DNA of 64,000 nt from Amphibalanus amphitrite (lineage: Eukaryota > Arthropoda > Thecostraca > Balanomorpha > Balanidae): contig NW_024883032.1 in assembly GCF_019059575.1 (NCBI RefSeq), positions 1-64,000 of the forward strand, given 5' to 3'. The stretch's first letter is position 1, and each line of letters begins with the position of its first letter. Below, in pieces: positions 39,459 through 60,482 of the stretch. Both the position numbers and the translations under genes were made by a program. Under the pieces are notes generated by a model. The model was given only the letters and a program-made list of their open reading frames with translations, was not told where the DNA came from and did no database searches.

Positions 39459-40246
39459 TAATTATGCGAGGAACACACAATGCACAACACGTTCCAATTT
39501 TCATGTTACATAAGGTCGTGCGCATCTTCTCACGACTTATCACGAAAAATGTCGTGTTCCTTGACGTACCCAACACGGAAGTACTGGGCTGTTTCCGCCA
39601 CGTTTTATCTTTCGTTCGGCTGGCTAATCGCTTGGCTAATTAGAAAAGCCTTGCAAGCGGGAGGTGGCCTCACAGAAGCGGCGAGTTTTTAGACATTTGC
39701 GGCGATAACAAGCCACGAACGTCTACAAGCACCCAAAAGCACCTAGCAGTCTTGCTAGCAGTGTGCGTGCTTTGAACAAATTGAAAACGCCTATGATAAA
39801 TGAGCATTGAGCATGATGCAACTCATCCAGCGTCAGTGAGCTTATGTGGGTTCAACTTGGCGTTGTTTTTTACGATGTGATAAGTAATTAATTTCTTATC
39901 TACTTATTTGTAGGTTCTGACGTCAATTGACAATGGCGTTTATTCGAATCGCAATTAACTAGGAATGTCCGCTGGCTCCTTAGATAGTGGAACAAAGTGA
40001 CGGTAAGCAGCCTCCAAACAATTAAGCAAAGTCGTACGCGCCTTGTACAATACCTTCACTGAATCCATCACACTTACCCCAAACCGCAAAATACGTGTGA
40101 CACACCAGAACGCCACCAAAACAAGCCACCTACGCTGTCTGTGACCCGATTTCCCCGGCCGACGGCCTTCGGCGCCACCAGACCGAACCGCGCCGATGGC
40201 CGACGGCACTGGTCGCGCTCTGCTGACCCCGTCCTCGTCGTTCCAG
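39459..40246. other. Sequence upstream of the PAM2 gene's large exon
   Basis: No repeat recognised. A pyrimidine-rich tract with CTGCTGACCCCG and TCGTCGTTCCAG ends at 40246 and looks like a branch point and acceptor. An ATG in fair context at 40196 is in frame with the large exon, so an unspliced start is the alternative. Confidence 0.4.
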
Positions 40247-43200
40247 GGGCCCACGCAGACAGTCGTCCGCGACCCGGCCATGGACTTCAATCCGTTCGGC
40301 AACGGTCACCACGGCACCAACGGCTCCGGCGCTGCCGACGGTGCCAATGGCTCCAGCGACTCGCACACCTTCGGCGTGGAGGCCTTCGGCGCGAAGCTCG
40401 GCTTCGGCTCGGGCCAGGCCAGCGCCGATCCCGACTCGCCGCTGAACCCGCAGGCCCCCGAGTTCACCCCGGGCCAGCTGAAGGCGTCCTTCGGCGGCGG
40501 TGACTCGGCCCACCTCGACCCGAGCGCGGCCGAGTTCGTGCCCTCGGGCGGCGCCGTGTTCGAGACAGAGGTGCCCGAGCAGTCGACTGGTGGCGGCCTG
40601 TTTAGCCAGCTCAGCGACGGACTGAACTCGGCCGCCGCTGGCCTGTCCTCGGCGGCCGGGTCAGCAGTCGACTCGTTCAACCAGTTCACCTCTGACGCCG
40701 GAGAGGGAGCGCAGACGGCGCTCGACTCGACCACCGAGCTGGCGCCGAGTGCTGCCGACAGAACGGCAGACGGTGTGGAGACGGCCTACGACAGCGCCGC
40801 CCAGCAGCTTCAGGGCGCGGCGGACCACGCAGCACAGGGAGTCGAGGCCGCCTTCGGCAAGACGGCCGAGGTAACCCAGGATGCCTACGACAAGACAGGT
40901 GAATTTGCTGAAGATGCTTATCAAAAGACGAGTGACTTTGCCGAGGACGCATATAAGAAGACGAGTGACTTTACCGAAGACGCATTCAATAAGACTGGTG
41001 AACTGGCCGATGATGCATACCACAAAACGAGTGAATCGACCGAAGACGCCTTCCACAAGACAAGTGACTTTGCTGAGCACGCTTTCGACAGCACCGCAGC
41101 TGTCACTAGCGACGCTCTCGGGAAAGTGTCTGAAACTGCGGACAACGCATTCGACGCGACTGCTGAGTTCGCTCGGGGCGCATACGACAGCGCCAAGACG
41201 GGCGCTGAGACTGCGTTTGACAGCACCACAGAGGCGGCTGAGACAGCGCTCGGTGCAGCGTCAGAGGGCACCAGCGCGGCCTACGAGCAGACCGCCGAGC
41301 TGGCTCAGAACGCGGCCAGCGGACTGGAGGAAGAATATGACCGAGCAGCACAGGGACTGAGCTCTACCCTGGAGAAAACGGCCGACGCTGCTGATACGGG
41401 CTACAACCGAGCTGCGGAGTATGGCGAGGAGGCCTTCGACACCATGGCACGAGGCGCCGATTCTGCGCTGGAACACGCCTCTCAGTTCGCACAGGAGGCG
41501 TTTGACGCACCGGCGCGGTCGGTGGGCGCTCCGTTTGACATCGGTATGACGGCCGAGGAGCTTGATGCCGCCTACGGCAAGACCGAGGACGTGGTGGAGA
41601 AGGTGGAGAAGGACGTCGAAGGCGCCCTCGAGACGACGGCCGAGAAGGCCCAGGAGACCGCCGACGAGGCCGAAGCAGCGACTAGCGGCGTGCTGGGCTC
41701 TCTCGCCGAGACTGCGACGTCTGCGTACAACACGGCCGCCGAGAAGGCATCGTCTGCGTTCGACACGGTTGCCGACACCACTGGCTCGGCGCTGGACGCT
41801 GCCGGCCAGGCTGCCACGTCGGCCTTCGACACGGCCGCCGAGACGGCGACCTCAGCCTACTCTACCGCCGCCGAGAGCGCCGGGTCCGCGTTCGAGGCGG
41901 TCAGCTCGGGATTCGGCTCTGCCTTCGACACAGCCTCGTCCACTCTCGGATCGGCGGTCGAGTTCGGCACCGACTCCGCCCAGACTGCCGTCGACAAGTC
42001 GGCTTCCTTCGCCGATGAGGCTGCCGACGCTGCAGCTGACGCGACAGAGACCGTGGAACGGAAGGTCGAATCTGCCGCCGCGTCAGCGACTGAAGCGTTT
42101 GACGTGGGTGCCGGCAAGGTGAGCGAGTATGCCGATGAAGCTGCCGAAGAGGTGCAGCAGCACGTGGACGAAGAGCCACTGGCCGAGCGTGCCGGCTCTT
42201 CGTTTGAGCCTGTCCAGGAGCGGCTCGGCAGTGCGCTGGAGGCGGCCGGCGACTTCGTCAGCTCGTCGTATGACGCTGCCGCCGCCGAGCTCGGATCGGC
42301 GACCGAAGTAGTCACCGGAGGCGTGCAGTCTGCCGTTGAGTCCGCCTTCGACACCGCGACTGCCGCCTACTCTGCCGTGGCTGATGGGTTTGGATCGGTG
42401 GCCACCTCAGCCGAGACAGAGCTGGAGAAGGCTGATGACACCGTCACCAGCCAGGTGGAGACTGCTGTCGACAAGACCGCCGCAGCGCTTGACTCGGCCG
42501 CGGGACAGATGGACGACACGCTGGACGCTACACTGGACGCCACAGTGGACGCTGACGCGACCTTGGAGTCGAGTGCGGTACTGGCCGGCGCTAACATCGA
42601 TTCCGCAGTCGGTGGCGTCACGGCGGCGCTCGATACGGCTGCCAGTGAGTCAGCGGCGGCGATGGAGTCGGCAGCCGACCACGGACGCTCTGTGTTTGAC
42701 ACGGCCGCGGGCGACGCCGAGGACGCCTACCACAGTGTGACAAAGGAGGCTGCGGAAACGCTCGAGTCCGCTGCCGTCGCGGGCGAAACCCTGCTTGACT
42801 CAGCCGCAAGCAAGATGGAGACCTGCTACGACGAGGCGGCCGGCGCCGCGGAGGACGCTGCCGAGGCGACGGAGCGGACGCTCGACTCGGCCGCCGCTGA
42901 GGCGGAGACGGTGACCACCGAGGCGGCTTCGACACTGGAGGCGGCCTACGACCAGGCGGCCGACGCCGGCGAACAGGTGTCGGGAAGCATCCAGTCTGGA
43001 GTGGATGCCGCCGTCGAGAACACCTCTTCCCTGCTGTCGGCTGGAGTCGACTACCTCTCAGGCGGACTGCAGTCGGCTTACGATACCTCCGCTGAGGCCG
43101 TTCAGTCTGCCTACGACACCTCTGCCGAGACTACTAAATCTGCTTACGATACGTCAGCTGAGTTCGCTCAGTCAGCCTACGATACATCTGCTGAGACTGC

Positions 43201-46121
43201 CAAGTCTGCTTACGATGCCTCCGCTGAGGCTATCCAGTCTGGCTTCGACACCTCTGCCGAGACTGCTAAATCTGCTTACGATACGTCAGCTGAGTTCGCT
43301 CAGTCGGCCTACGATACATCTGCTGAGACTGCCAAGTCGGCTTACGATGCCTCCGCTGAGGCTATCCAGTCTGGCTTCGACACCTCTGCCGAGACCGCCA
43401 AATCTGCTTACGATACATCAGCCGAGTTTGCCCAGTCGGCCTACGATACATCTGCTGAGACTGCCAAGTCGGCTTACGATGCCTCCGCTGAGGCTGTCCA
43501 GTCTGGCTTCGATACCTCTGCCGAGACTGCTAAATCTGCTTACGACACTTCAGCCGAGTTCGCCCAGTCAGCCTTCGATAAATCAGCCGAGGCCGCCCAC
43601 TCGGCGTACGATACCGTGTCTGGTGGTGCGGAGACTGCCCAGCAGGAGACGCAGGCGCTCGTTGACGACCTGTCCGACCCGCTACAGGCGGTGCGTGATA
43701 ACGGCGAACAGTTCAGCAAGGTGATCACCGACTCTGTAGAGTCTGTGTCGGGTAGCGTGCCGGACACAGAGGACGTGGACGTCGACCGAGAGCTGGAGGT
43801 CAAGGGAGAGTCTGTGATGGAGCAGCTGAAGGACGGTCTGCAGTCGGCGGCCGACTCTGCCGCCGAGACGGCCACGTCCGCGGCCGACTTCTTGTCCCAG
43901 GGTATCAGCTCTGCGTACGAGACGGCAGCATCCGTCCTTCCTCTGTCCCAGGACACACAGGAGGACGAACAGCCCGAGCAGAAGTCTGACAAGAAGGCCG
44001 AGTCCGATGACGACGAGGCAGAGAAGGAGGCAGAGAAGGTGATCGAACAAGACACCGAGGAGCTGTCGCACGACATCCAGCGCGCTGCTGACGATATCGA
44101 GAAGTTCGTCGAGCACGCCGCCGAGACGCTGCAGGACGACTCTGAGGAGGCACGCGAGGCCGTCCGACGGATGGAGGAGGAGGATGTCTCCTCCGTCACC
44201 CCGCTGTCACCCGCCGAAGAGCTCAGCTCTGTTGCCGATGATGTCACCGATGAACTGAAGGAGACTGCTGCCGAGGCGGGCGAGCGGTTCGAACAAGAGG
44301 TGGCTGTGGATGTACACAGCTCACCGGCGGCAGAGGAGCCGCCTGCCCAGCTTGGAGACTTGGTTCGGGAGAAGGTGGCGGCGGCAGTGGACGCTGCTGA
44401 AGAGGCTGCTGAAAAGGCTGCTGAAGCTGTTTCTCCGGCAGTGGAGAAGGCTGGTGAGCTGCTGGGGACGGCAGGAAGCCCGGCTGAAGGTGACGTGACT
44501 GAGGAGTTCGAGACGATCGAGCAGAGCGAGGTGGAGGCAGTGCGCCGCGAGATGGCTCAGGAGGAGGAAGAGGAGCCTCAGATGGACCCGATTGAGTCCA
44601 ACGAGCTGCTGCAGGCCTCCTTCCACGAGGACATGCAGACGTTCTCGCACCACAGCGCGGACATCCTCAGCCCCGAGCAGGAGCATTTCGATGCCATGGA
44701 GAGGGCGCTGGAGCAGGGAGACGAGGAGGTTGTCCCGGGAGGCTTTGTCTACCACACGCCCGTGCGCAAGCCCACTGAGCCACTGCTGCCAGAGATGTCT
44801 GAGCCGGCTGTCCCGGCCTCCGAGCCGGAACCTCAGCCGACTCCGGAGCCCGCCGCTGAGCCTGAGAAGGAGCCTGTCGTCGAGCCGGAGCCGGTGGTTG
44901 AGTCGGCGCCTGAGCCAGTCGCTGAACCTGAGCCGACACCAGAGCCGACCCCAGAGCCCGAGCCAGCCCGTGAGGCCTCCCCAGTGCCGGAGCCCGAGGC
45001 TCCTGTCGAGGCGGCCGCAGTCGCTGCCGACCAGGAGTCGGCTCCCCCTGCTCCCAAGGAGCCGGAGCCGGAGCCCGCTGCGGAGGACTCGTCTTTGTTG
45101 GCCGCCGCCGGTACTGCTATTGCCGCCGCCGGAGCCGCAGCCGTCGCCGCTGTCACCGGGGCTGCAAAGAAGGCCACCAAGCCAGACGCCAAGGCTGACA
45201 AGAAGGCGCCGACCGTCAAGAAGACCGGCAAAGAGCCACTGAAGAAAACTGTTGCTGGTAAGACCGACACCGGCAAGCCAACCGCCAAGCCTTCGACGAC
45301 CACCACCGGAAGGCCGACCGCGGCGAAGACGACCACCAAGCCGGCCACGAAGACGACCACCTCTCGTCCCACCACGGCTCCGTCGAGCCGTCCGGCCACC
45401 GCAGCCACTACCGCCGCCAAGACGACCGCCGCGGCCCGCCCGCGCCCGGCCACAGCCACCACCAAGCCATCCACCACCGCGTCTGCCAGGACCTCCCTGG
45501 GGGCGGCCAAGACGTCCACCACGCCCACTGCGCATAAGACTACAGCGTCCACCACCAGCTCTGCCCGGCCGGCCTCGGCCAAGACGGCGGCTCGTACGCC
45601 CCTCAGTCACCGAACCACATCGCCGACTAAGAGCGCCTCTGCCACCGCGCCGACTACTGGCACCACCAAGACGCCGACCAAGCCCAAGCCGACAACTACC
45701 AGCGCCCGCACCACACCGACCACGGCTCGCACCACCACCTCAGCGCGCACCACCCTTCTCAAGAAGACGCCCACCTCGCCGACCAAGAGCGCCGACGGCA
45801 AGACGGCTGACGCCAAGCCGGCGACCAAGCCGACCCGTCCGAGCACGCTGAGCACCCGGCCGGTCGCCAGTCGCACCTCGACCACCAAGTCGAGCTCCAC
45901 CACCGGCAGCAGCACCAGCCGCACCGGCACCACTGCCGCGGGCCGCACCGGCACCACGGCCACCAGCCGAACGGGAACCAGCACCACTCGGCCCACGAAC
46001 GGCACCAAGACGGCTAAGGAGGCGGTCAACAGCAAGATCTCTGCTACGCTGAGCCACCGTCCGACGGCCGCCAGCAGCACCAAGACAGGAGGAGTCGGGT
46101 TCGGCACCAGAGTTCCCAGAG
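40247..46121 (+). CDS. Giant coding exon: PAM2-motif protein with 11-residue amphipathic repeats
   Basis: One uninterrupted frame of about 5.9 kb from an acceptor at 40246 to the donor CCCAGAG|GTGAGA at 46121 (phase 1). ATGs at 40196 and 40280 (GGCCATGG, good context) are alternative starts; numbering here uses 40196 as residue 1. Residues 81-92 (SPLNPQAPEFTP) and 104-116 (SAHLDPSAAEFVP) are PAM2 motifs, which bind the MLLE domain of poly(A)-binding protein. About 190-1180 is Ala/Asp/Glu-rich with an 11-residue period, most regular at 960-1135, and should form long amphipathic helix without heptads. About 1180-1540 is acidic, 1542-1630 is Pro-Glu repeats, 1631-1658 is Ala-rich hydrophobic, and the remainder is basic Thr/Ser/Pro/Lys-rich and tau-like in composition. 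No enzyme domain is seen. It is likely cytoplasmic. I cannot name the gene; a link between mRNA-bound PABP and a membrane or lipid surface is inference. Confidence 0.9.
40436..40471 (+). other. PAM2 motif 1 (PABP MLLE-binding peptide)
   Basis: Encodes SPLNPQAPEFTP. It carries the defining LNPxA and the Phe three residues after the Ala, as in PAM2 peptides of Paip2, ataxin-2, Tob and eRF3. The Leu and Phe are the two residues that insert into MLLE pockets in known structures of that family. Confidence 0.85.
40505..40543 (+). other. PAM2 motif 2 (PABP MLLE-binding peptide)
   Basis: Encodes SAHLDPSAAEFVP, with Leu, Asp in place of Asn, the conserved Ala and EFVP. It lies 12 residues after the first motif. 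Tandem PAM2 motifs are known in Tob and eRF3, where they raise avidity for poly(A)-binding protein. Confidence 0.8.
43073..43600 (+). repeat. Coding 33-base repeat nested in a 132-base higher-order repeat
   Basis: About 16 units of an 11-residue repeat, consensus SAYDTSAETAK, occur in tandem. Units alternate in a fixed order of four (SGFDTSAETAK, SAYDTSAEFAQ, SAYDTSAETAK, SAYDASAEAIQ), giving a 44-residue, 132-base higher-order period repeated three to four times with very high DNA identity. This implies recent expansion by unequal exchange or replication slippage inside the exon. Confidence 0.95.
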
Positions 46122-46933
46122 GTGAGATATCGGGAGAGGGGGGCTCCGTTCGTACCGCCGGCCGTTTGACCAGAGAGGTAGTGTCAGGACGGGTGATGAC
46201 TGATGGGGCTATTGCTTGGTCTTGGGAATGGAATAGGCGTTTCACGAGGCTTTAATCTATATTATGATTTTTTTTCTAAAAGAAAAGATTTTCAGTCCAT
46301 GCATTATATTCATTCATTCATTCATTCATTCACTCATTCATTCATTCATTCATTCATTCACTCATTCATTCATTCATTCATTCAATACATTAATTCATAC
46401 AGTAAATTTTCATTAAAAACGTCACACATAATTGACACGAGCTGTATCGATATTGATATCAAAACGCCTTTATTCAATGCCTATTCAATAATGCGCCTAA
46501 TGTGCTTTTAAAACAATCAATGGTCACGTTGACAACTCTCAAACTCTTCTCACCTCTAAGAGATGAGAGGTGATGAGAGGTAGCTATAGCTCTCATCACA
46601 TTTAACATTTAACGTTCTGAGATAGCTGACATACGCCACAGGCCCAATAAGAAATCAAAGGACGTAGGTATGGTCTTTAAGTACCCACATGAAGACAAGT
46701 GAATGCTGGTACCCTCCCGACATACGATGCATTGTGAATGAACAAAACTTGTATGAATTGTGTGGACCGGAAGCCATGCTACAACATTCTAACTTCTAGC
46801 TTTGTCGTCTTCTGTCGGTAGCCCAGCTGAGCAGCCGTTACACTGGGAGGTCCTCTAGTGGGGAGTCGCATATGAAGAAGAATTGGCCTCCTCGCAAATG
46901 TTCACCACTAACTCTGCCCCCGTGTGCCCTCAG
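46122..46933 (+). other. Intron of the PAM2 gene
   Basis: The donor GTGAGA at 46122 and the acceptor CCCCCGTGTGCCCTCAG at 46933 bound an intron in phase 1. The frame continues through the donor to a stop at 46255, so intron retention would add about 45 unrelated residues. It holds the ATTC tetranucleotide array. Confidence 0.85.
46308..46384 (+). repeat. (ATTC)n tetranucleotide microsatellite
   Basis: About 19 copies of ATTC with two ACTC variants, inside the intron of the PAM2 gene. Confidence 0.96.
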
Positions 46934-47250
46934 ACGCGGTGAAAAAGGCTGCTCCTGGCACCACTGCCACTAAGACGTCCCCGCGGGCCCCGATCAGCGG
47001 CAGCCGAACCAAGCCGGCTTCCAAGACCACGCCGGGCAAGGCGGCGCCCATCAAGAAGGGGGCATCCCCGATCGTGGCCGAGACAGCAGCGCCGGTCGAC
47101 AATGGCGGCGGACTGGAGAAGTTCACCTCCGAGGATGTGGTGATAGAGGTGGCTGACAAGCTGGCCGGCGAGACCAACGGCCACCACACCGAGCTGGCCA
47201 GCTTAGGAAACGGAAACGGCATCGATCACCACGCGGAGGAGCTGTCGTAA
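46934..47250 (+). CDS. Last coding exon of the PAM2 gene
   Basis: Enters at phase 1. The G ending the previous exon plus AC completes an Asp codon, and the frame continues AVKKAAPGTTATKTSPRAP, with the same Lys/Thr/Pro-rich composition as the end of the large exon. The last part changes character: LEKFTSEDVVIEVADKLAG is acidic and mildly hydrophobic, then NGHHTELASLGNGNG leads to the end EELS and TAA at 47248-47250. The conserved-looking C-terminal 40 residues may be a functional tail, but I do not recognise a domain. Confidence 0.88.
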
Positions 47251-48125
47251 ATCCCCGAAACGACACGGAGCATGTGATAGACTGGTGGCGGACGCGAGCG
47301 ATGATCGCGTGACGGGAGTGTTCCGAGTGGTAGAGGTCGCCACGAGCGGCGACAGTAGCGTGCAGAGGTCGCCACGAGCGGCAGCGGCACCGGGCGAGGC
47401 CTGGCGAGCCGGGTGGCGCCCTCTGGGTGCCACCGGCCGCCCTGCATTGTGATATAAGCACGCAACGAACTGAGGGACACGAGGCTTGAAGCGCTTACTT
47501 TTAGTTTATTTTGGTAATTTATTGTGCGGCGAGCCCCATTCGGGGCAGCCGAAGAGCGTCTGAGTGTGTCACCTATATGGATGGGTGAGCGAGTGAGCAA
47601 ACCGGCGCCAGAGCCACGAATCCGCCGGCGGATTGACGCCTGTCATATAGCGAGCGATGGGGCGTGCCTGCCCTGTATGCGCGGAGCTTATCGTTCCTGC
47701 ATTCTTTACGAATGGCGCCGCGGAGCGCCTCTCAGATTAGACTGTATTTTTAGATTGTTGTCGAGTCTCGGTTCGGGGCGGGGGAGGGATGTGAGGGAGG
47801 GGCGCTGCCGGTGGCCCGAGCAGGGTTGTCGGCACGTCCACCTTTCGGTCAGGTCAGGTCAGGTCAGTGTGCGGCTTCTGGCCGCTCGCTGCCCTTCCGT
47901 TCCGAGCTGCTTGGCCTGTTTTATCCTGCGGCCGGTCGTGTTTGTGTTTCTGTCTGTCCGTCCGACCTGCCGATCGGCGGGCGCGGACCCGCCGTCACAC
48001 GGGGAGGGCTGCTCTGCATATACTTACTCTGACCGGCGCCGCACGTCGGCCAGCCCGCGCCAGACATTCTCTGTGTGTTTTATTATGATTATTATTGCAA
48101 GGCACAATAAATCTTCCTAGTTTTC
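47251..48125 (+). other. 3' untranslated region of the PAM2 gene
   Basis: Follows the TAA and runs to just beyond an AATAAA at 48106-48111. It includes a short GGTCA tandem run at 47847-47866. Frames inside are short and low-complexity. The exact cleavage site is not determinable. Confidence 0.65.
48106..48111 (+). terminator. Polyadenylation signal AATAAA of the PAM2 gene
   Basis: Canonical AATAAA about 855 bases after the stop codon, followed by a T-rich segment (TTTTCTTCATTTTG) suitable as a downstream element. Confidence 0.6.
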
Positions 48126-49068
<943 letters not shown>

Positions 49069-49479
49069 GTCACTCTGTCTCTGTATGTGTCTCATGTGTC
49101 TCTGTATCTGAATCTGTCTCTGTCGTTTGTCTCTGTCTGTCTGTCTCCGTATGTCTCTGTCTCTTTTCTTGTCATTGTCCCTTCCTACTTTTCTCCTTAC
49201 CTCTCAGGGTTGAAATCCAGCCGAGCGTGAATAGAGGGTGGTGCGAATGGCGAGTGTCATGCATAGGAAAATAGTTTGACACGGATGTCAGCAAAAATAG
49301 TGTGGACGGATGGAAGTCTGAGACGGTAAGGCGTTGGTGAGGCGTGACAAGTCCGAAGGAGGACTGAAAACTGAGACATCAGTGAGAACGGCTCTGGCAT
49401 GTGAATGCAGTGTATTTTTTTATGAATGAAGTGCGATATAATCTTACGTGTTTCCAACGTATAAAAAACAAGCACTTAA

Positions 49480-51444
49480 ACCCTCGCCGGCCGAGGGGGA
49501 GGGGGGATGCCGCCCTCATACGTTTTTACACGATAGCTCGGAAGACGCTGGTGATAAAGAGCTGAAATTTCGCACGCCAGACTTTTGATTCAAACCCAAT
49601 CTTGTGGCACCAATCGCATTTGCAGGTCAACTCAGGTCACTGACCTATGGCGTCATAAGTGAGCCTCTGCACTGTCCTAAGCTAAGAGGTTGCAATTTCG
49701 TAACGCCCTCAGTGCCAGAGAAGTTTTCGAGTGGGTGAAACTTACAGTGCGTAGTATCCATCATAGGCCCCTTACTTGTATGCCTCGGATTTTTTTCTAA
49801 GGGTCACCTGAGGTCAGGTCGGTCATGTGATTATACGTCAATGGGCAAATAAATGGAATCTGTTTTTTTTTTGCCCCGGGATTGGCATACAACTAGCTAA
49901 AACACATGGAATCGTAATCTCATGCACTCCTTGCACGGCCCCATGTTTAACTTCTACATTGTTGACCTTGCGTGACGTCATTAATGACGTCACTAAAGTC
50001 ATAGCAGTTTTTCGTCAATAGCTCCCGATCATATTGAGCTAGCCTACCAGGAAAGCCACCAATTGACTGAAAAAGGCCTACCGAATTGAATGATTAGCGA
50101 TACGACCTCCTTCGGCCATCTTTATGACCTGAGTGGGCCTGAGCTGACTTTGTCCCCGAGGTGACCTTTACCTGTCCTTACCGAAACAAAAAGTATATCA
50201 TTCGACGCGCCTCAGCACGAAGATCACGATGCTGCCCAAATCCCGGCTCTGTGACCAATTTTAGCAATGCTATTAAACAAAAACCTAACGCGTACGACGT
50301 ACCTTAGGGCGCTTGAACTGGCCAGTGACTGCTTAGGTTACCGGTTGACCTGAGACCTTAACCCTCGCACGACCAGGCCATTTCTCATAACACGAACGAC
50401 CAGGGGGGGGGGGGTTGTTACGACCCCCCCCCTGGCGTTTCGAAACGGAAGGTCGTAGAGCCTAGCGGAAAAAAACCAACGGATTGCTCTCAACGAGATC
50501 TCGCGATTGGTGGTATATTTTTTGGTCCTAGGTCAACATTTGACCTACTTATGACCGGTCAAAGGTCAAATTTTCCGAAAAAATCAAACTTTTTCAACTT
50601 TGCGCAACGATTGCGGCAAAACGGTGAGAGATATTAACTTCAAACCTTCAACAACGTATTCCCCACTCAATTCTGCATCATATATGGTGTTTTTGTTGTA
50701 TTTACCCTATAAAAGTAAGAGGCCTATTGCTGATGAGTGATATGGTGTCACATCACCCTCCGGTGTTTGTCCCGATTCGTCGGCTGTTGACCACTGCTCC
50801 GCTATAAATACTGTAGGTAACGACTCAGAAAAGATATGTGGATATCCACTGCAATGTGGATAGCATCAGCAGAAAACCTCGGGACTCGGTACACACTTCG
50901 TGAAAATCCGGCCGGAGGCTGTACCTCTTATGACGTCATAACTCCGTGACCTGACCTGACCCGGTCAATTTTCTTGCACCACACGATAGCCAATGCTTGC
51001 CCCAACATGCATAGGAAGTTTCATCATGATCCATCAAACAATGTGGGTATCACCGGCAGAAAACCTAGGGATTCGGCGCACACGTTTGGTAACTGTCGGC
51101 CGGAGGCTGTACCTCTTATGACGTCATAACTCCGTGACCTGACATGACCCGATCAATTTTTTTTCGGCAAAAGATGCGCAAAGGTTGCCCCAGAGGGTAT
51201 TGAAAATTTCAGCCCGCTACGACAAGCCGTTTAGCGTGCACTTCGAAAAAACCTCAGGGGGGGGGGGTTGATACAACCCCCCCTAGGCGTTCTAGGGTTA
51301 AAATCGAGTACCTGCCGCTGCGTCTCGTAACGACACACACTCATTTTTCCGCGAGGCTTTAGCTCAATTAGGGCGAAACGATGAGGGGGGGCGTACCCTC
51401 CCCCTCGGACGGAGCGTAGCAGAAAACCATAGCTTCGGCGAGGG
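49480..51444. mobile_element. TTAA-flanked MITE (piggyBac-type), element C, interrupted by D
   Basis: TTAA at 49476-49479 (with an extra A) and 51445-51448. The left end CCCTCGCCGGCCGAGGGGGA corresponds to the inverted right end CCCTCGCCGAAGC, followed inward on both sides by a GGGGGAGGG and CCCCTCAT-like block. The element is interrupted by a second TTAA element at 50362-51297. The original element would be about 1 kb. No transposase is seen. Confidence 0.72.
50362..51297. mobile_element. TTAA-flanked MITE (piggyBac-type), element D, nested
   Basis: Flanked by TTAA at 50358-50361 and 51298-51301. The left end CCCTCGCACGACCAGG and the right end CCTAGGCGTTCTAGGG form an imperfect inverted repeat, each followed by a G run and TTGWTACRACCCCCCC. 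It contains two diverged copies of an internal segment (about 50870-50960 and 51045-51150, both with GGCCGGAGGCTGTACCTC). It also has a CGGTCA-A-AGGTCA direct repeat at 50556-50568. It inserted into element C. Confidence 0.78.
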
Positions 51445-55928: not shown

Positions 55929-56553
55929 GTGAGTAGAAAACTAACAAAACACTCACAGCAGTCTCGTGAATCTTATGAAAACGTTTGCGAGTTTTAGTGA
56001 TTTGTTGAATTGATAATATCATACTGGCACTGTGTTGAGTCGAATACCTATTAGGACGGCATCCTAGAAAAAAATGCATCGACATACAGCCGACGCAGTT
56101 TTCTTTCAGCGATTATGCACAAACATTCCGGATACGATGTCGGCAACCGTTTCTTACGGCAACCGCTCTGGAAGCACGGTGACTGAAATGAATGTTGCAC
56201 AGTCACCATGAGTTTGGTGTTACGAACGGTAGATGTTGTTACCAACAGTGGATAATTAGCGAAGAATAGCTCGCATGAGATAATTGCGTTATGTGGCCAT
56301 TACGAGAGGCAGCTGTGTTGTAACCATTGCGCAGGAGAGCACCCATCATGCAAGACGATGCACGGAGGCATGCACGCGTGACGCAGATGCCGTCACCCAC
56401 ACTCTAGAAAGCATAAAATCACGGCTTCCAGCGTGAAATTATCACGAAAAACTGCCGCGTCGTTGGTCTTTATCATGCCACCTTGCCTACCGAGCCCGCA
56501 CGAGCACCTGCCGTTGCTCTGACGTCACGCCTGAAGCCGGGACACCTTTGCAG
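55929..56553 (+). other. Intron 3 of the secreted-protein gene
   Basis: Bounded by GTGAGT at 55929 and the acceptor CACCTTTGCAG at 56553. No repeat recognised. Confidence 0.7.
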
Positions 56554-57420
56554 GTGAAGAGCCGACCACCCACGGGCGGCGGCGGAGACGTCAGATCGCG
56601 CAGAAGCTGCAGGACATGCTGAACGCGCCGTACAGCGGCCGGCTGCCCACCGACCTGCAGCCGCTGATGCATCAGAGCCTGGAGCGACGGCGGCACGTCC
56701 AGCAATTCAACGCCATCCGGCGCAGTGGCGGGCAGCAGGAGGACCTGCGCAGCCGACCCGCCTTCCAGCCGGGCCCGCAGCCCAGCCCGCAGATCGACCG
56801 GTTGGCGCTGCCGAGCCTCTTCCCCGAGAGAGACGAGTCGGAGGAGCGGCGTCCCGAACAGGGATTCGGACAGCAGTTCGGCGGCCAGCAGGACTTTCGG
56901 TCTCAGCAGGACTTTAGACCTCAGGACGAGTTCCGGCCCCAGCAGGACTTTAGACCTCAGGACGACTTCCGGCCTCAGCAGGACTTCAGAAATCAGGACG
57001 AGTTCCGGCCCCAGCAGGAGTTCCGACCCCAGGACGACTTCCGACCTCACGATGAGTTCCGGCCTCACCAGGAGTTCCGTGACCAACAGGACTTCCACCA
57101 GCAGGACTTCCGTCCGGAGGACGACTTCCGCCGGGATCAAGGCTTCAGGCCGGAGCAGGACTTCGACCCAAGCCACGAGTTCAACTTTAGCCCGGAGCAC
57201 GACATCCGTCGTCGGCCGCGCCCGGCTCGCAGGCCACAGAACTCAGGCTTTGTGCCGGACAACGGCGGTCTGTCCAGCCGCCTCTTCAGCCAGATTCGGA
57301 GGACGTTCTTTGGAGGCCAGGCGCAGAACCGCCGGAAGAGAAGTGTTGAACAGACCAGCGACGTCTCGAGACTGACACCTCGGCAGTTGTTTGACGAAAG
57401 GCCAGCAGACAACGGGCCAG
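56554..57420 (+). CDS. Secreted-protein gene, exon 4 (FRPQ hexapeptide repeats)
   Basis: An 867-base exon, phase 1 to phase 1 (donor GGCCAG|GTGCGT), encoding about 289 residues. It opens with a basic cluster (RRRRRQIAQKLQDMLNAPYSG). About 16 tandem units of consensus FRPQ[Q/D][D/E] follow at 56895-57182. After the repeats come RRRPRPARRPQ and a furin-type RRKRS near 57328-57345. The Arg/Asp/Gln/Phe alternation gives a polyampholyte with evenly spaced aromatics, as in some structural or adhesive matrix proteins. I know no named family. Reading through the donor gives a stop at 57474-57476. Confidence 0.9.
56895..57182 (+). repeat. Coding 18-base repeat (FRPQQD/FRPQDD hexapeptides)
   Basis: About 16 units of six codons; Phe is invariant, the second residue is mostly Arg, and the last two are acidic or Gln. 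Early units alternate FRPQQD and FRPQD[E/D], giving a 12-residue higher-order period, and later units degenerate (FHQQD, FRRDQG, FDPSHE). Confidence 0.95.
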
Positions 57421-57584
57421 GTGCGTTGACAAACAATGCAGCCCCGACAGTTTTGGCTCCGGTTCTTGCGCTGTAGCGATATGCGATGGACATGGTGCTG
57501 CGGAAATGCAGTTCAAAGTGGGACGGGCCACAAAGCGCATTAGTTGAGACAAAACCATAACAACGGACAAACTAGGGAAGTTAA

Positions 57585-58991: not shown

Positions 58992-59541
58992 GTAAGTCGA
59001 TTTTATGCATCACTTTTCAATTTTCATTTTTCATAATTGTATGTTTCATAAATGTATAATGTATTGCATGACAGTTAACTAGGATATGAAATTTCTTATA
59101 TCTGACGATTAAAACATGAATAATAATTACCGACCATTAATTATAATAACTGGCAGGAAATGACGGGACACCAGTGTTATGTAATTGTATAACTAGTTAC
59201 ATCGAAGTTTTCCTCGGTGTCGGGATACACGCTACCCAGTAGCTCTCTCAAGCCGTCGCCGGCGGCGGCTGTCCACCGGCGCCGCTAAAAGTGAGAGTAT
59301 CACCCGGGAGGGAGGTAATGGGCCGGAGAAACGGCCGCATCGGACGGTCACGTGAGCGGACGGAGGGGTGACTCACAGTTCACACACCATGCCATTGAAT
59401 GAAAACGGATGGCGGACGCAGACAAAAAGTGTAGTGGCGTTAGTCAAGAGCGTAACTGCAGGGGCAGTCAATAAGTTAGGTATAGGTATTTCGGCCAGAG
59501 AATCAGAATGATCTGACCCGTCGTTTCTCTGTCTGTTTCAG
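58992..59541 (+). other. Intron before the last coding exon
   Basis: AT-rich at first, then GC-rich near 59245-59350. It ends in the strong acceptor CTCTGTCTGTTTCAG at 59541. No repeat recognised. Confidence 0.6.
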
Positions 59542-60482
59542 GTGCCAGAGCCGGCGCTGCGCCCCTCCCCCACACTACTCCAGTGACCGAGCGCCCCTTT
59601 CAGCTGACCCGGCGGCGGCGCCGCTCGGCGCCGTTCCCTCGCGGCGGCGGCTGGCGGGACGCCCGCCGCCACTCCCACCACGGCCCGACGTACCCGGCGT
59701 ACCCGGTGCACGAGCGGCACGACCCCGGCCCCGGCCCGAGCGGCGGGCGCTACCAGCTGCCGCTCAGCCCTGTGCCGTACCGCGCGCCGTTCGACGAGGC
59801 TCGTCACCCGGTGCTGCCGCCGCCGCCGCCGCGGCACCCGGCGCGGGCCCCCTCTCCCACCTCGCCCCGGCCCGGCTTCCTGGAGGGATTCCGGGAGCCC
59901 TTCCCGGCCCAGGAGCGCTCCAGCCTGCTCGGCTCCGGTAATTACATCATCCTCCGTGGCGGATCGTTCGTCGACGACTACAGCTACCTCGACAACCACC
60001 TGTCGGCGCGGCCGTACCCCGACCGGCGGCCGGACATCATCGACAACTTCAGGGACTTTGCCGAGTTCGCGCACGGCTCCGAGCCGGCCTACAGCCTGGC
60101 GGTGCCCGAGAGACGTATGAGCACGTCAGAGACGAGTACGGACGTTGTCAGAGCATCTGCTGAGAACAGCACGGAGGCCGATACTGCCGAGATCCAGAGC
60201 ACAGCGGACGGAGTGGAGATAGAGGAAGAGAGTGAGGTTGAACTGAGCGGGGAAGGTGAGAATCGACCTCGCCAGGCGGCCAACATTCAGGAGATCTTGT
60301 CTGATATCTCCAACGACGTTCAGGCCGACCGACTGCCCGATCACGGCACCAGCCATGTCAAGAAACGCGTGTTGAAAGACAAGCGTCTGAGGCTACGCCG
60401 TCAGCGCCAGAAAGAGGCGAGTCTGGAGAGCCGGCTGTCAACCGAGCCGGAACCCGAGGATCCAATGGTGGCAACCTTCTGA
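59542..60482 (+). CDS. Secreted-protein gene, last coding exon
   Basis: A phase 1 exon with frame GARAGAAPLPHTTPVTERPF to TGA at 60480-60482, about 312 residues. Near the start is LTRRRRRSAPF, a furin-type site (about 59605-59630). Next comes a Pro/Arg/His/Tyr-rich region with a PPPPPRHPARAP stretch, then a more ordered-looking GSGNYIILRGGSFVDDYSYL. The C-terminal third is acidic (EIEEESEVELSGEGE), then basic (HVKKRVLKDKRLRLRRQRQ), ending PEDPMVATF. The phase fits direct joining to exon 5 (phase 1). With exons 1-5 the product is about 710 residues. Confidence 0.87.

Follow-up and report, generated by a model that had tools for sequence, protein, structure and literature searches.

PAM2 peptides bind the MLLE domain of cytoplasmic poly(A)-binding protein (PABP), or that of HYD/UBR5, and Ataxin-2, PAIP2 and USP10 are among the animal proteins that carry them. 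PMC12852828 adds GW182, eRF3 and LARP4 to the animal set and describes the multi-PAM2 scaffold system Upa2/Upa1 of the fungus Ustilago maydis, which helps to place Pab1-bound mRNA on the endosome and in which Upa2, called a scaffold, has four redundant PAM2 motifs. The PAM2 consensus is given as LNxxAxEFxP in PMC7356810, where its Asn is said to stabilise a turn. Giant 11-residue repeats have been described in human PLIN4, in which a 968-residue region of 11-mers (33-mers) forms a 3-11 helix (PMC5889406). The protein that we describe here resembles the six animal proteins in possessing a PAM2 peptide of the kind that binds MLLE, and PLIN4 in possessing a very long 11-mer region. Among the open-licence papers covered, we found no report of PAM2 together with a giant 11-mer helix in one protein, and none that takes up poly(A)-binding protein, lipid droplets and mRNA localization together. 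To our knowledge, no animal PAM2 protein has a giant 11-mer helix; PAM2 peptides and such helices are each known, and it is their combination that looks new.

The gene lies on the plus strand of the window, by which we mean the whole 64,000-nucleotide stretch of Amphibalanus amphitrite DNA that was analysed. An open-frame scan returned 2,036 codons without a stop at 40145-46255, and joining exon 40196-46121 to 46934-47250 gives a single frame that predicts a protein of 2,080 residues ending at a TAA (47248-47250). Its features are as follows.

40196..46121, plus strand: large coding exon, 1,975 codons plus one base, with a consensus donor at 46122
40442..40471, plus strand: PAM2 motif 1, LNPQAPEFTP, residues 83-92, an exact fit to the consensus LNxxAxEFxP
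40514..40543, plus strand: PAM2 motif 2, LDPSAAEFVP, residues 107-116, with Asp at the consensus Asn
40616..43615, plus strand: region of 11-residue period, 1,000 residues, acidic (net -156) and amphipathic, with 48 complete 11-mers in one register
43071..43612, plus strand: young tandem array of 132-bp units (44 aa, 4 x 11), 4.1 copies, 91% matches
43616..45088, plus strand: spacer, acidic and then Pro/Glu-rich, net -107
45089..45163, plus strand: Ala-rich uncharged segment of 25 residues (1632-1656), Kyte-Doolittle 19-residue maximum 1.94
45164..46121, plus strand: basic tail rich in Thr, Ala, Ser, Pro, Lys and Arg; residues 1657-1976 carry a net +51
46122..46933, plus strand: predicted GT-AG intron of 812 bases, holding an (ATTC)n microsatellite
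46934..47250, plus strand: last coding exon, made up of the two bases that complete the split codon, 104 further codons and the stop TAA
48106..48111, plus strand: AATAAA, candidate poly(A) signal, the first of two between the stop and 48200

The splice sites of this model were read by eye from the sequence and the junction is predicted: the donor AG/GTGAGA (exon end 46121) and the acceptor CCCTCAG/ (exon start 46934), which is preceded by a pyrimidine tract, preserve the frame. Three candidates exist for the 5′ end, namely ATG 40196, ATG 40280 in a GCCATGG context, and an upstream exon spliced at an acceptor at 40249. The long frame and the splice model agree well with the extent of 40247..47250 that the first-pass annotation had assigned to the gene. 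Signs of coding are the length of the frame and the substitution pattern of the young array, in which dN/dS between the four 44-residue units was 0.00-0.31 and below 1 in all six comparisons. Among eight older 11-mers, dS was computable in only 8 of 28 pairs (mean dN 0.35, mean dS 1.57), which makes them unusable for dN/dS, and the 269 non-synonymous against 112 synonymous codon differences between adjacent in-register 11-mers say little alone. A further frame at 47518-48120, in the presumed 3′ UTR, gave 15 bits to PLA2_inh against a cutoff of 22 and was taken as a chance match.

The PAM2 pair sits in a Gly/Ser-rich N-terminus with 14 residues between the motifs. That two such motifs lie close together ahead of the repeat had been noticed at first pass, and the observation is borne out by profile, by shuffling and by uniqueness. 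Against a cutoff of 20, Pfam PF07145 scored 26.9 bits (one stretch) for exon 1 and 33 bits (two stretches) for the 99-aa N-terminal piece alone; shuffling residues 28-140 20,000 times, or the entire protein 3,000 times, never produced the pattern L[NDS]PxAxxFxP; and in all six frames of the window (127,996 residues) this pattern finds these two sites and no other. At the sequence level, the PF07145 scores thus give good support to the docking on the MLLE of PABP or UBR5 that had been proposed from the two peptides, and we consider it likely that the motifs would bind an MLLE domain.

The region that follows is periodic at 11 residues. Over residues 142-1140, residue identity at lags 22, 11 and 33 is 0.343, 0.319 and 0.314 against 0.121 expected (2.6-2.8x), and when the near-perfect array is removed it is still 0.263, 0.252 and 0.259 against 0.118 expected (814 residues; 2.1-2.2x). 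Hydrophobicity peaks at 98.25, 98.5, 99.0 and 98.25 degrees per residue in four segments covering residues 141-1140, where 11/3 corresponds to 98.18, and the power of these peaks (59.7, 25.5, 34.6 and 34.4) compares with 2.0, 0.2, 1.8 and 0.7 at the heptad angle of 102.9 degrees. A heptad coiled coil is therefore rejected in all four segments, and the period is 11, as the first-pass annotation had it, and not 7, the value that it had named as telling against its reading. Beyond the repeat the 11/3 peak is lost: residues 1140-1280 peak at 96.5 degrees (power 9.9) and residues 1280-1500 at 100.5 degrees (power 13.1). A strict 11-state register covers 597 of the 1,000 residues, leaves 403 unassigned and has 7 phase breaks; its score of 543.6 compares with 0 to 0.2 for ten shuffled sequences scored under the finished profile without retraining. 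In the larger unassigned part, residues ~620-960, the register slips while a period near 11/3 stays, because lags 11, 33, 22, 40, 29 and 15 exceed expectation there and the hydrophobicity peak is at 99.0 degrees.

The chemistry of the repeat is that of an amphipathic helix with a wide hydrophobic face, mostly of Ala. In register, Ala occupies position 7 (88%), Tyr, Phe or Leu position 8 (88%), Glu or Asp position 2 (74%) and Asp or Glu position 9 (77%). On a helical wheel, the three bins centred at 0, 30 and 60 degrees from the middle of the face take up 144 of 166 bulky hydrophobic residues, a clustering that is partly built in because the uncharged residues define that middle. The charges had no part in defining it, and the acidic residues peak in the 150-degree bin. 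The 42 Lys and Arg lie closer to the hydrophobic face than the 196 Asp and Glu (mean 117 vs 135 degrees; p 0.0013 by permutation), a charge layout that we take to be class A of the apolipoproteins. The fractions of hydrophobic, aromatic and charged residues are 0.42, 0.071 and 0.24, and the mean moment is 0.300-0.320 depending on window size, the 33-residue windows giving 0.300 against 0.114 in 50 shuffles; these are sliding-window means on the Fauchere-Pliska scale, so that comparison with published moments is approximate. The published values (PMC5889406, Table 1) are 0.35, 0.002 and 0.15 with a moment of 0.257 for Plin4 (about 0.31 here), 0.47, 0.02 and 0.24 with 0.30 for alpha-synuclein, and 0.40, 0.065 and 0.35 with 0.39 for ApoA-I, while Plin3 has an aromatic fraction of 0.01 and a moment of 0.35. 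The amphipathicity of the repeat is within this published range of lipid-surface helices, and its charge is the outlier, at a net -5.15 per 33 residues as compared with +1 per 33 for the Plin4 helix (PMC5889406).

What this charge means for the surface can be judged in part from Plin4 itself. A 4-mer with the 2K->Q change, which shifts the net charge from +1 to -1, was reportedly cytosolic, and extra hydrophobicity restored its droplet location (PMC5889406). Because a helix of net -1 could be rescued by added hydrophobicity, negative charge does not exclude droplets, and because the barnacle repeat exceeds Plin4 both in aromatic content and in moment, we do not regard its charge as an argument against droplets. 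Per 33 residues, though, its negative charge is five times that of the mutant, which puts it outside the range covered by those experiments (PMC5889406). A net charge of about -5 per 33 does argue against anionic membranes and against a plain Plin4-like mode. The suggestion made at first pass, that the protein could tether PABP-bound mRNA to a lipid droplet, a membrane or a stress-protective assembly, is only partly supported: the amphipathicity is in the lipid-helix range, and the charge tells against anionic membranes, against the Plin4-like mode and against likeness to the near-neutral LEA_4 proteins. AlphaFold2, given residues 141-740 alone and no alignment, returned six helices over nearly all of the piece with a mean pLDDT of 53.9, a pTM of 0.40 and none of the 600 residues at pLDDT >=90; the model fits a conditional helix, as weak evidence that proves nothing.

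Exon 1 matches the profile of the exchangeable apolipoproteins, PF01442 (ApoA1/A4/E), at E 1.4e-22 and 80.8 bits in six stretches, under the curated cutoff of 90. Repeated amphipathic helices with basic residues nearer the face are common to both; the 186-residue ApoA-I helix has 7 prolines (PMC5889406), whereas the repeat here has 5 in its 1,000 residues, and the PAM2 motifs would imply a cytosolic protein, unlike the exchangeable apolipoproteins. Neither the perilipin nor the LEA_4 profile of Pfam matched at E up to 1, and besides Apolipoprotein and PAM2 no family did so on exon 1, nor any on the last exon, in searches where the HMMER filters drop most weak matches. The comparison with PLIN4 is one of published description, and PAM2 goes unmentioned in the sections of PMC5889406 that it draws on. 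NCBIfam, a prokaryote library, gave 0 families at E up to 0.1. Against the protein collection, no relative was found for residues 28-160 among 2,521 exon 1-sized candidates at E 0.01 or among 2,624 smaller candidates at E 10, nor for residues 1-1600 among the best 7,985 candidates by shared words at E 1e-5; a protein comes into view in this search only if it has exact five-residue words in common with the query and 0.55-1.75 times its length, and the outcome is no evidence for a lineage-specific gene. By sequence, residues 29-148 found nothing in the PDB at E up to 10. Foldseek of the model against viral models gave 94 matches at E up to 10 and 0 at E up to 0.001, weak matches as expected for a low-confidence all-helix model. 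A viral origin was also considered and set aside, since none of the 15 pattern matches of the N-terminal 120 aa in viral contigs was confirmed as a relative. The GT-AG intron, the PAM2 motifs and a TTAGG array in the window point to an animal gene.

The reading that we tentatively favour on these features is that of a cytoplasmic PABP/mRNP adaptor with a helix that would fold when it meets a hydrophobic surface. Each PAM2 would bind the MLLE of PABP (or of HYD/UBR5), such that a single molecule could carry a poly(A)-bound PABP, or two of them. The 11-mer region would be largely unfolded alone and, on such a surface, would turn into a very long 3-11 helix; were all of its 1,000 residues helical, at 0.15 nm each, it would measure ~150 nm. 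Folding of the repeat on a surface of some kind seems reasonably likely. As the helix is strongly acidic, this surface would most likely be a neutral-lipid or ER-derived monolayer and not an anionic bilayer; its identity as lipid droplet or ER is a possibility to which we give somewhat less than even odds. The basic tail could make a second contact, with an acidic surface, a microtubule or RNA, or could fold back on the acidic part, and the Ala-rich segment, which the first-pass annotation had also noticed, is a borderline candidate for a transmembrane or insertion segment. The net effect would be to hold PABP-bound mRNA on the surface of an organelle. We count in support of the adaptor model the PAM2 scores and the lack of the motif in shuffles and elsewhere in the window, the 11-residue period, the moments and aromatic fraction, the position of the basic residues near the face, the E-value of PF01442, the hydrophobic rescue of the net -1 Plin4 helix and the dN/dS below 1 in the array, and against it the net charge per 33 residues, the cytosolic location of the 2K->Q Plin4 4-mer, the PF01442 score under its cutoff, the low confidence of the AlphaFold2 model and the loss of the 11/3 peak at 1140-1500.

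The main rival is a microtubule-associated protein of the MAP2/MAP4 type, a family whose layout is an acidic projection domain and a basic tail that binds microtubules. The N-terminal 1,600 residues would then form the projection domain, the tail would sit on microtubules and the PAM2 pair would bring PABP-bound mRNA. We retain this rival because the acidic-then-basic layout fits it too (residues 1-1631 carry a net -274, residues 1657-2080 a net +51), and the tail is suitably rich in Thr, Ser, Pro, Lys and Arg; on the other hand, a projection domain would need no 11/3 amphipathic period over 1,000 residues, and no tubulin-binding repeat (Tau/MAP2/MAP4) is present among the Pfam matches at E up to 1, so that of the "basic tau-like tail" seen at first pass the basic tail stands and the likeness to tau goes without a domain match. 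On balance, we think a microtubule-associated protein unlikely. A soluble acidic spacer that carries PAM2 and competes for MLLE, as the regulator PAIP2 does, with the repeat as a drifting low-complexity expansion, would account for the acidic, soluble composition, for the young 132-bp array as a recent tandem expansion and for codon differences that give no strong sign of constraint in the older part; the persistence of the amphipathic period through the old, diverged part and the low dN/dS between array units speak against such drift, and we give this explanation little credence.

Two further alternatives retain the 11-mer helix and assign it another partner. By analogy with Upa2, itself a scaffold with four PAM2 motifs (PMC12852828), the protein might be a PAM2 scaffold in which the 11-mers drive self-assembly into a right-handed hendecad coiled coil. 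The period and the defined hydrophobic face can be cited for it, as can two weak matches of the repeat in the PDB, where KWOCA_39 (0.0075) and a designed protein of helical repeats (0.11) are the only ones at E up to 1. Like-charged helices at about -5 per 33 should repel one another, however, and the face is wide and mostly Ala; we consider this form of assembly unlikely. Alternatively, an LEA-like stress protectant that folds on drying could keep PABP-bound mRNA soluble, as the Ala-rich amphipathic 11-mers and the helix-prone, low-confidence AlphaFold2 model might suggest. This we regard as improbable, given that no LEA_4 match was obtained at E up to 1 and that the 18 Arabidopsis LEA_4 (group 3 LEA) proteins of PMC7215670 have balanced charges with a net near zero, as opposed to -156 over the 1,000 residues here.

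If the adaptor reading is extended to its most specific form, the protein would represent a new class of animal mRNA tether, in which an acidic helix coats lipid droplets or the ER and holds poly(A) mRNA. Such a tether would do in animals what the Upa system does on fungal endosomes, but with a helix of the perilipin or apolipoprotein kind; the likeness to Upa2/Upa1 is one of description, and we consider this extended form rather unlikely. Were the protein to coat an organelle, it would connect poly(A) tails in animals to a lipid surface in a direct and generic way.

Other parts of the window hold repeats and open frames of separate interest. TTAGG, the arthropod telomere unit, forms an array of 30.4 copies at 2412-2563 within a large inverted repeat, the arms of which (1853-2149 and 2563-2859; 297 nt, 94% complementary) hold 48-bp tandem units and have a second palindrome between them (2231-2294 / 2298-2361); the array could be an interstitial telomere seed or the interior of a mobile element. 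Rfam at gathering scores and ARAGORN gave 0 matches in the window. An open frame at 56535-57476, in which DFRPQ/EFRPQ repeats recur with periods of 18, 36 and 72 bp and a cleavage site resembling RRKR is present, had no Pfam match at E up to 1 and perhaps encodes a secreted or cuticle protein. Another, of 321 codons at 59517-60482, is Pro/Arg-rich and then acidic, likewise with no Pfam match at E up to 1. A long TCTGTCTC-type microsatellite (8-bp unit, 49 copies) at 48771-49164 is open in several frames by simple repeat only, and 50852-51259 holds a tandem 188-bp unit in 1.8-1.9 copies with 75-82% matches, possibly the remnant of a satellite.
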